From Bedellia somnulentella (Eukaryota; Arthropoda; Insecta; Lepidoptera; Bedelliidae), in contig OY755172.1 in the NCBI GenBank assembly GCA_963576735.1, forward strand, positions 744,001 to 808,000: a DNA stretch of 64,000 nucleotides, in the 5' to 3' direction. A program made the position numbers and the translations under genes. Positions 39,561 through 42,291 of the stretch are shown one piece after another. The notes beneath the pieces are model-generated. The model worked only from the letters and a program-made list of their open reading frames with translations, made no database searches and was not told where the DNA came from. The stretch's first letter is position 1; each line of letters starts with the position of its first letter.

Positions 39561-39827
39561 CTATCAATAATAAACGTTCGTTCACGCCGTTTATCCCCGA
39601 AGGGGTTGGCAGAGGTACCAATACTTCTGAACTCACATGGCAGCGCCATCTAGTGTCCAGAGAAGGTACCCACGTTTTGCTTAGACAGTGTACTCACGTG
39701 ATAGGGGGCAGGCTTATCGCCGTTTTGTTCGAATACACTGTCACATGACTAAGTACAACTCAGCCATGTGGGTTTCCTCACGATGTTTTCCCTCACTGTT
39801 AACAACCATGATAAATTAACCACACAT

Positions 39828-40298
39828 AGTCCAGTCAAATTAGCACCAAAAATAGGGGTAAGGTTACATTAATTCGCACCTAGCTAAAAATTGGCATGGA
39901 TGTTGAGAACCCTATTACAAATAATTTGTCAATTATCCACATCAATCCGGCGTGTGCAAAAAAAGTTATTCAAGGTCAAATGTTGCAAAAATCGGTTTTT
40001 TGAGTTTTCCAGCTAAACGGTAAGTTTTATCATAAAAATAGGTGAGACAAAAATTATTCATTATGCAATTATCTATAAAAATTGTTCATACACTTTTTTT
40101 CCTAAGAATCACCATTTCGGAGATATAGCGATGCAAAAAGTTGAAAAAATTGTGTTACTCATAATATGCACACGTTTCCGCGCCACCCGTGAGGTAGTGT
40201 ACATGGCGCGTTTTTTTTTTACGTGGTTTCCCCGGTAGGCCTATTCCACGATCTATTGTGGTTCAGTTGAGTTAAAAAGCTATTGTATTAAATTGGAA
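39828..40298. repeat. Left long terminal inverted repeat
   Basis: Pairs with 41722-42183. Contains GCGCCACCCGTGAGGTAGTG and ends inward at AATTTGGAA-type sequence shortly after the gene's stop codon side. Confidence 0.9.
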
Positions 40299-40345
40299 AT
40301 GGTACTATTGTAGATGACAAGAGCAGTGTAAGTAATTTGAGAAAA

Positions 40346-41722
40346 TTATTCGTCTGATTGATACGCATCTAATGGAACATAATCTATATTGTCTTCTTCT
40401 CCTTCTTCTTCTTCTTCATTTTCTTCTTCCTGCTGGGTACAAATAAATTGTTCAAAGAGCGATGCATCAGATGTCTCCTCGTCTATATCGTAAGAATCCT
40501 CTTCTACTAACGATTGAACATTGGAGCACGACTGGCCTCGACAACTGATACATGCTAATGAACAGAACAACCCAACTTTTTTACAGCCACATTTAGCATT
40601 ACACCCCTTTTTGCAATTGCAAAAAATTGAATTGAGGAGTTTTTCCGGTGCAGGAAGAAGTAAAGTCTGAACTGGTTCCAATATGTTGTCAATTAACTTC
40701 CAACCACAGTCTTCTGGGTTTAGTTTATTACCGAGCCATACTTGAACTTGATAATATACCCGAAATAGATGTTGGTGAGCAGCAGCAGAGGTTGGAGGAA
40801 GACAAGCTAATTGTACTTGTTTTTTTTTATGCGTATTTTTTGCAAAAGATAAGTATCGAAACTTATCTAAGCATGTTAATTTTTTTGGAGCTCCGTAAAC
40901 GGAAAGAAGAAAGCGAATTCCGTTGGTGATTATAGCTTGTGGAGTAGAGGTACTTTTTTTGAAAACGTTAGAACAATCAACTAAATCTTGTCTCTCAAAC
41001 AATTTCAAAACTGTTCTTTTACCCCTTCTGAAAAATGCTGATGTCGTGTCGCAACCAGTTACTGCATGCAGAAATAATATATGATTTTGGCATTTTGAAA
41101 AAGCAGATAAACTCTTGGATGAATACATATTTGATTGTTGTTGAGCCTTCCCAGGTTTTAAAAAATAAATATTTTTTTCGGTTGGCGTTCGAGCAGTAAG
41201 TAATACCAACAAATCAACATCTTCACCAACAACAATAGTTGAATTTGTCGAGTTAAATTGTTCTATTGCTGTTTCAACTATTAGGACATCAGCATCATTA
41301 TCAGCTTGCTTTACAGAGATATTTTCAGACGTAAATTTTTCTTTCAACATTGTAATGAACTGAGACTTGTTGTGTGTATTTGCGAAAAATTTCTGTTGGC
41401 TGGTGGTAAATGTCATAAATTCACCAAAAATGACGTCCGAACATGAAGATGTTGTTGTAGCTCGACGACGTTGTTCCGCAGCTTTAATATTTTTTGCACA
41501 ATCAGTATAGCCATCAAATACTACAGTCACTCTATGGTCAAAATGTCTATGTACATACCGCACATAATTATCTAAAATATGGCCAAATGTTTCTTCGTGA
41601 TCCCACACTACACGGTGTAATAGATATCCTCCGTCGATTATGTATGTAGCATTTATGTTGTCAATATCTATGTTTACTATTTCAAAACAATCGTAGATGG
41701 CTGACTTTTGTGATTTACGCAT
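40346..41722 (-). CDS. FEN1/XPG-like nuclease with C-terminal CXC domain, sole gene of the TIR element
   Basis: 458 codons, no stops; the ATG is the first base run inside the right TIR boundary, so the promoter must lie in the repeat. Acidic residues match the PIN/FEN1 nuclease core: D30 (YIIDGGYLLHR), D70 (VVFDGYTD), D141/D143/D145 (QADNDADVLIVE) and E167/D168/D170 (VVGEDVDLLVLL). HAVTGCDTTSAF around D225 then resembles the FEN1 GCDY helix-hairpin-helix start. Residues 368-401 are cysteine-rich (CNCKKGCNAKCGCKK, CSLACISC) like tesmin/TSO1 CXC DNA-binding repeats. The C-terminal tail is poly-Glu. No DDE triad is apparent. Inferred role: DNA cleavage for mobility, guided by CXC binding. It could instead be a passenger gene. 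Confidence 0.82.
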   Translation of the reverse strand: MRKSQKSAIYDCFEIVNIDIDNINATYIIDGGYLLHRVVWDHEETFGHILDNYVRYVHRHFDHRVTVVFDGYTDCAKNIKAAEQRRRATTTSSCSDVIFGEFMTFTTSQQKFFANTHNKSQFITMLKEKFTSENISVKQADNDADVLIVETAIEQFNSTNSTIVVGEDVDLLVLLTARTPTEKNIYFLKPGKAQQQSNMYSSKSLSAFSKCQNHILFLHAVTGCDTTSAFFRRGKRTVLKLFERQDLVDCSNVFKKSTSTPQAIITNGIRFLLSVYGAPKKLTCLDKFRYLSFAKNTHKKKQVQLACLPPTSAAAHQHLFRVYYQVQVWLGNKLNPEDCGWKLIDNILEPVQTLLLPAPEKLLNSIFCNCKKGCNAKCGCKKVGLFCSLACISCRGQSCSNVQSLVEEDSYDIDEETSDASLFEQFICTQQEEENEEEEEGEEDNIDYVPLDAYQSDE

Positions 41723-42183
41723 TCCAATTTAATACAATAGCTTTTTAACTCAACTGAACCACAATAGATCGTGGTATAGGCCTACCGGGGAAACCACGTA
41801 AAAAAAAAAACGCGCCATGTACACTACCTCACGGGTGGCGCGGAAACGTGTGCATATTATGAGTAACACAATTTTTTCAACTTTTTGCATCGCTATATCT
41901 CCGAAATGGTGATTCTAAGGAAAAAAAGTGTATGAACAATTTTTATAGATAATTGCATAATGAATAATTTTTGTCTCACCTATTTTTATGATAAAAGTTA
42001 CCGTTTAGCTGGAAAACTCAAAAAACCGATTTTTGCAACATTTGACCTTGAATAACTTTTTTTGCACACGCCGGATTGATGTGGATAATTGACAAATTAT
42101 TTGTAATAGGGTTCTCAACATCCATGCCAATTTTTAGCTAGGTGCGAATTAATGTAACCTTGAATGTCTAATTTGACTGGACT
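41722..42183. repeat. Right long terminal inverted repeat
   Basis: Inverted copy of 39828-40298. TTCCAATTTAATACAATAGC at its inner edge lies directly upstream of the nuclease start codon. Confidence 0.9.
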
Positions 42184-42291
42184 ACACATATGACTTTAGA
42201 AAAAACAAATTGGTGTAGGCCCGACCCAGGATTGGAACTCACGCCCTTCTGTTTTCGGGCGGGTGTTCTACCCACTGGAATATCATGTCTG

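Follow-up and report, generated by a model that had tools for sequence, protein, structure and literature searches.

AcademX, a lineage of DNA transposons within the Academ superfamily, encodes a nuclease of the XPG type. The superfamily is described as having a DDD/E transposase (PMC9587614); target-site duplications (TSDs) are given as 3 or 4 bp for AcademX and 9 or 10 bp for AcademH and are linked to an encoded nuclease and helicase, with the suggestion that the accessory enzyme relates to TSD length (PMC10045372). The KolobokP, KolobokE and KolobokD transposons likewise are described as combining a DDE transposase with an accessory nuclease (PMC9587614). Here we analyze a 64,000-nucleotide stretch of DNA from the lepidopteran Bedellia somnulentella (contig OY755172.1, positions 744,001 to 808,000; hereinafter the window), in which a 2358-bp element with long terminal inverted repeats (TIRs) carries a gene for a FEN1-like nuclease followed by a cysteine cluster (Table 1). 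A sequence-only reading had taken it for an autonomous transposon using this nuclease instead of a DDE transposase. We consider it instead, with a probability of roughly 0.86, to be a non-autonomous copy derived by internal deletion from a DNA transposon that encodes a protein of about 1480 residues, most likely of the AcademX lineage.

This reading is carried by a full-length relative (L059) in the genome to which the window belongs (G000; 548,867,130 bases, 549 Mb). It spans 5576 bp between TAGTCCGG ends, with a 3-bp TSD (TAA) and arms in inverted orientation, each roughly 350 bp long (92% over 333 columns), and has a single open reading frame (ORF) of 1479 codons containing both a DDE-like and the FEN1-like part. 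The window protein shares 70% identity with residues 1026–1477 of its product, and the window ATG aligns to an internal methionine of the longer frame, of which the window gene is the 3′ third. The D, D and E positions are conserved in the DDE-like part of full-length relatives, and homologues elsewhere are also fused to such a part. For one homologue of the lost N-terminal part (P0240), the predicted fold is closest to the P-element and Hermes DDE transposases, a useful if model-based lead; in a Foldseek search the DDE-like model matched nothing at E ≤ 0.001. When the genome was searched at the protein level with a further homologue, P0244, 59 matches were obtained (the best 55 of 205 candidates scored), and several open frames near 1440–1510 residues occur among the matches listed, L059 being the one of this group that was read complete. 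P0244 and P0001, two shorter ORFs on one 5111-bp contig, may themselves come from one element. The replacement of a DDE enzyme by the FEN1-like protein was thus rejected on three counts: the L059 frame, a fragment in the copy L014 described below, and the P-element/Hermes-like predicted fold. In substance this is the finding that the sequence-only reading had named as refuting it: related TIRs with a 3-bp TSD accompany a DDE-type part in L059, and L014, which has the same TIR, keeps a piece of the N-terminal part of that frame.

The element in the window reads TAGTCCAGTCAAATTAG...CTAATTTGACTGGACTA at its termini. Its arms of about 470 bp align over 473 columns at 96.4% identity (6 mismatches, 11 gap columns); segments of 361 and 88 nt are 99% identical and the outermost 17 bp match perfectly, which bears out the perfect ends and long, near-identical inverted repeats first noticed. 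The undamaged 458-codon gene was likewise found as described, its start lying at the right arm's inner boundary; no second long frame lies between the arms of this copy. The right arm aligns with L059 over 457 columns (72%) at the 3′ end and over 272 columns (69%) at the 5′ end. Because the 3′ match is the longer, the long arms are probably the product of faulty gap repair in which the 3′ end was copied, inverted, over the 5′ part.

Structure prediction agrees with the proposed nuclease: the window protein is predicted to adopt a FEN1/EXO1 fold over residues 6–337, with all seven FEN1-type acidic positions present. These correspond to the seven active-site carboxylates of FEN1. The cysteine cluster follows this domain, as had been proposed. 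Profile and sequence searches returned little, with nothing better than E 0.12 in Pfam (the Tesmin/TSO1 CXC profile giving no match at E ≤ 10) or E 0.32 in a sequence search of the PDB for the window protein, and scattered weak Pfam matches over 72 homologues (best 5_3_exonuc_N, E 4.9e-6, 26.8 bits against a cut-off of 34.3). The predicted likeness to the FEN1/XPG/EXO1/GEN1 nucleases is accompanied by differences, in that the relatives are joined to a DDE-like part, a cysteine cluster is present, and identity is 10–15% in most structural rows. Among the titles and abstract openings of the 16 papers listed for CXC and the 2 listed for FEN1/PIN, none pointed to this arrangement.

Table 1. Features of the element and its insertion site (window positions).
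Feature	Positions	Strand	Basis
Whole element, 2358 bp, TAGTCC...GGACTA	39827..42184	.	arms, ORF, family-wide end comparison
Left inverted arm, 472 bp, 3′ side of gene	39827..40298	+	arm alignment
Right inverted arm, 463 bp, upstream of gene	41722..42184	-	arm alignment
Intact ORF, 458 codons; C-terminal third (FEN1-like nuclease and Cys cluster) of a DDE-FEN1-Cys protein	40346..41722	-	ORF listing, L059 comparison
FEN1/EXO1-like nuclease domain, residues 6-337 of the 459-residue translation	40715..41710	-	predicted fold
C-terminal Cys cluster, residues 369-400	40526..40621	-	conserved cluster; Tesmin/TSO1-like CXC in homologue database names
Target-site duplication CACA, left copy	39823..39826	.	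family ends, empty-site alignment
Target-site duplication CACA, right copy	42185..42188	.	family ends, empty-site alignment
Host repeat, left part, split by insertion	39579..39826	.	repeat alignment
Host repeat, right part, split by insertion	42189..42285	.	repeat alignment

A DNA search of the genome with the left arm gave 40 matches, the best 40 of 646 candidates being scored, so that all copy counts are lower bounds. Of these matches, 32 pair up as left and right arms of 16 copies, 1294–4480 bp in length; of the 16, the window element and L009 keep the intact 458-codon ORF. These two are 99.7% identical over 2358 columns, but their flanks and TSDs differ; they are therefore separate recent insertions, in keeping with the recent activity first proposed. 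L014, which has the same TIR as the window element, contains a fragment 63% identical to residues 125–203 of P0244 adjoining FEN1 residues, and L011 retains codons from immediately upstream of the internal methionine. Because these two keep pieces of the longer gene, the 16 copies seem to represent a mixed set of internal deletions. Among the scored candidates, none was a full-length copy bearing precisely the ends of the window family, though the unscored ones could hold one. The 4480-bp copy, L021 (G000:C12:2022508-2028987), has an insert of about 2 kb inside the gene.

Comparison of the 16 copies also fixed the ends of the element. The T preceding AGTCC is present in 16/16 copies and the A following GGACT in 15/16 (the end of L015 is damaged); being near-constant, the T on the left and the A on the right of the repeated ACACAT were assigned to the element. 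The hexamer is indeed duplicated exactly at the window locus, as the sequence-only reading had seen; as a TSD it was rejected in favor of CACA. The insertion interrupts a recognizable dispersed repeat, as had also been observed, and all 12 of the other copies of this repeat whose alignment spans the junction lack the element, with CACA directly preceding the join in 11 of them. Within the window family the TSD is 3 bp in 11/16 copies and 4 bp in two (CACA in the window, TATT in L022), and three copies have none (L010, L012 and the end-damaged L015). When three related families were pooled (n=24 elements: 16 of the window family, L024–L028 and L059 of the second, L043 and L045 of the third), a matching 3-bp TSD was found in 19/24 and a 4-bp TSD in 2/24, as against 6.2% and 0.7%, respectively, for mismatched flank pairs; the matches are not due to chance. 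Further copies of the split repeat occur within the window (e.g., 34242-33901, 23972-23679, 30713-30486).

Across the wider family the gene is constrained, since the window and L059 versions differ with dN 0.17 and dS 1.30 over 451 codons. Within the window family, the non-synonymous/synonymous counts against the window copy are 2/1 for L009, 18/0 for L010, 14/3 for L011, 17/2 for L012, 15/0 for L016 and 9/1 for L021, the other nine copies being shorter or more gapped. Among all 15, dN/dS exceeds 1 in nine, is below 1 in three (L009 0.53, L014 0.86, L020 0.89) and is undefined in three. As the copies are related by descent and minor frameshifts may raise the non-synonymous side, we claim from these counts no clear depletion of non-synonymous changes; this pattern fits passengers better than working genes in the deleted copies.

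The solved folds closest to the model obtained for the homologue of the lost part are those of the P element and of Hermes, a hAT transposon. Both groups have TSDs of 8 bp, whereas the present families have mostly 3-bp TSDs and additional FEN1 and cysteine-cluster parts; a TSD of 3–4 bp accordingly does not fit the P element superfamily. The features described for AcademX make it the closest published lineage, and membership in it is most likely: a TSD of 3 or 4 bp is found in 13/16 copies of the window family and one of 3 bp in L059, an accessory nuclease is encoded (here with the predicted FEN1/EXO1 fold and the seven acidic positions), and a putative DDD/E transposase, going by the predicted fold of P0240 and the conserved D, D and E, forms part of the full-length relative. 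The 5576 bp of L059 are, moreover, close to the mean of 5565 bp stated for bivalve Academ elements (PMC10294476). The window copy differs in having no DDE part and in its arms, lengthened to about 470 bp; as a deletion derivative it can therefore only be a non-autonomous member of AcademX. Under the Repbase rule as cited for non-autonomous elements (same TSD length, and at most one mismatch in terminal positions 1–11; PMC4455052), the termini TAGTCCAGTCA of the window family and TAGTCCGGTCA of L059, with one mismatch over 11 bases, place the two in one superfamily, the usual TSD being 3 bp and that of the window copy 4 bp. The nucleases of the Kolobok groups, in contrast, are described as having His-Me finger, lambda exonuclease-like and DEDDh folds (PMC9587614). 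In the literature searched, no paper contained "Academ" and "XPG" together as whole words.

The full-length protein would comprise, in order, an N-terminal region, a DDE-like transposase part with an RNase H fold, the FEN1-like nuclease and the C-terminal cysteine cluster. Its DDE part may bind the TAGTCC ends, excise the element and insert it at a cut staggered by 3–4 bp, while the FEN1 part could act as the ends are processed or gaps are filled, trimming 5′ flaps or branched intermediates. Mobilization of the window copy would most likely be in trans.

That the FEN1-Cys protein, started from the internal methionine, itself works in trans we judge improbable, whether it were to mobilize TIR elements by structure-specific cleavage with no DDE enzyme involved or to regulate full-length ones. 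In the former case the window would hold a minimal autonomous element whose nuclease resolves cruciforms of the arms in the manner of GEN1 before integration at a staggered break. We find this very unlikely, and autonomy as first proposed is left unsupported: the DDE-like part lies in the same ORF in L059, the start codon is an internal methionine of that longer ORF, 3-bp TSDs are shared with the element carrying the DDE-like part, and non-synonymous changes are mostly not depleted in the family (e.g., L012 and L011). In the latter case the protein of the deleted copies would be a regulator or helper retained by family-level selection, much as some truncated P-element proteins act as repressors. 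The open frame with its conserved catalytic positions and the strong constraint on the wider family would suit such a role; the mostly undepleted non-synonymous changes of the deleted copies and the absence of the full frame from 14/16 copies do not, and we hold it to be just as unlikely as autonomous movement.

A further alternative is that the TIRs are those of an unrelated transposon, which took up a FEN1-like gene from a host as its passenger. The sole point found in its favor is that the gene is broken in most copies. TIR and gene, however, diverge together across at least two families (between the window family on one side and L024–L028 and L059 on the other, the TIRs are 69–72% identical in DNA and the gene 70–75% in protein, one 48-residue piece being at 60%), and elsewhere homologues occur joined to the DDE-like part. 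Capture was rejected on the joint divergence, and we regard it as scarcely credible. An internal-deletion derivative of a DDE-FEN1-Cys transposon remains the preferred reading, and with it a false case of a DDE-free transposon is removed. What stands in its place is a probable AcademX-type system in an arthropod-like genome, with an open-frame full-length copy, young deleted copies and an empty site, in which the role of a FEN1-type nuclease joined to a transposase becomes testable.

Related families accompany the one in the window. Eight of the 40 left-arm matches belong to the second family, at 72% identity; the five fetched (L024–L028) have TAGTCCGG ends, are 1.35–1.48 kb long and retain only the 3′ part of the gene. 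The window-protein search of the genome gave 93 matches (the best 92 of 1223 candidates scored), about 45 of which, scoring almost alike at 66–71% identity to residues ~245 to 459, may represent a recent burst of deleted copies. A third TIR variant, TAGTCCAGTCAAAATAG, bounds L043 and L045 (2.0 and 1.8 kb, 3-bp TSDs), in which N-terminal fragments were all that was found of the long gene, these deletions being complementary to that of the window copy.

Many homologues were found in arthropods, in accord with the suggested multi-copy relatives; among viral contigs, scanned twice, no relative turned up. P0004, P0105, P0003 and P0005, 60–82% identical over the parts covered, come from records labeled Andrena (bee), Parnassius (butterfly), Aquatica (firefly) and Araneus (spider), a scatter that may reflect horizontal transfer. 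P0016 of Polistes exclamans has a retroviral-type integrase core (rve; E 1.9e-6, 28.5 bits, under the cut-off of 32.6) and a FEN1 fragment in one predicted protein, possibly a gene-model artifact over nested insertions. A more distant family is represented by L060 (G000:C18:4782300-4790300), a 6814-bp element with TAGT...ACTA ends, a TAA TSD and inverted arms of 519 columns at 98.8%. Its protein, 24% identical to that of L059, has DDE- and FEN1-like motifs (HAFTGCDYT) and no C-terminal cysteine cluster; L060 itself has 1063 codons from stop to stop, and among the P0244 matches listed 11 of nearly equal score are of its type, 10 of them with open frames of 1437–1455 residues.
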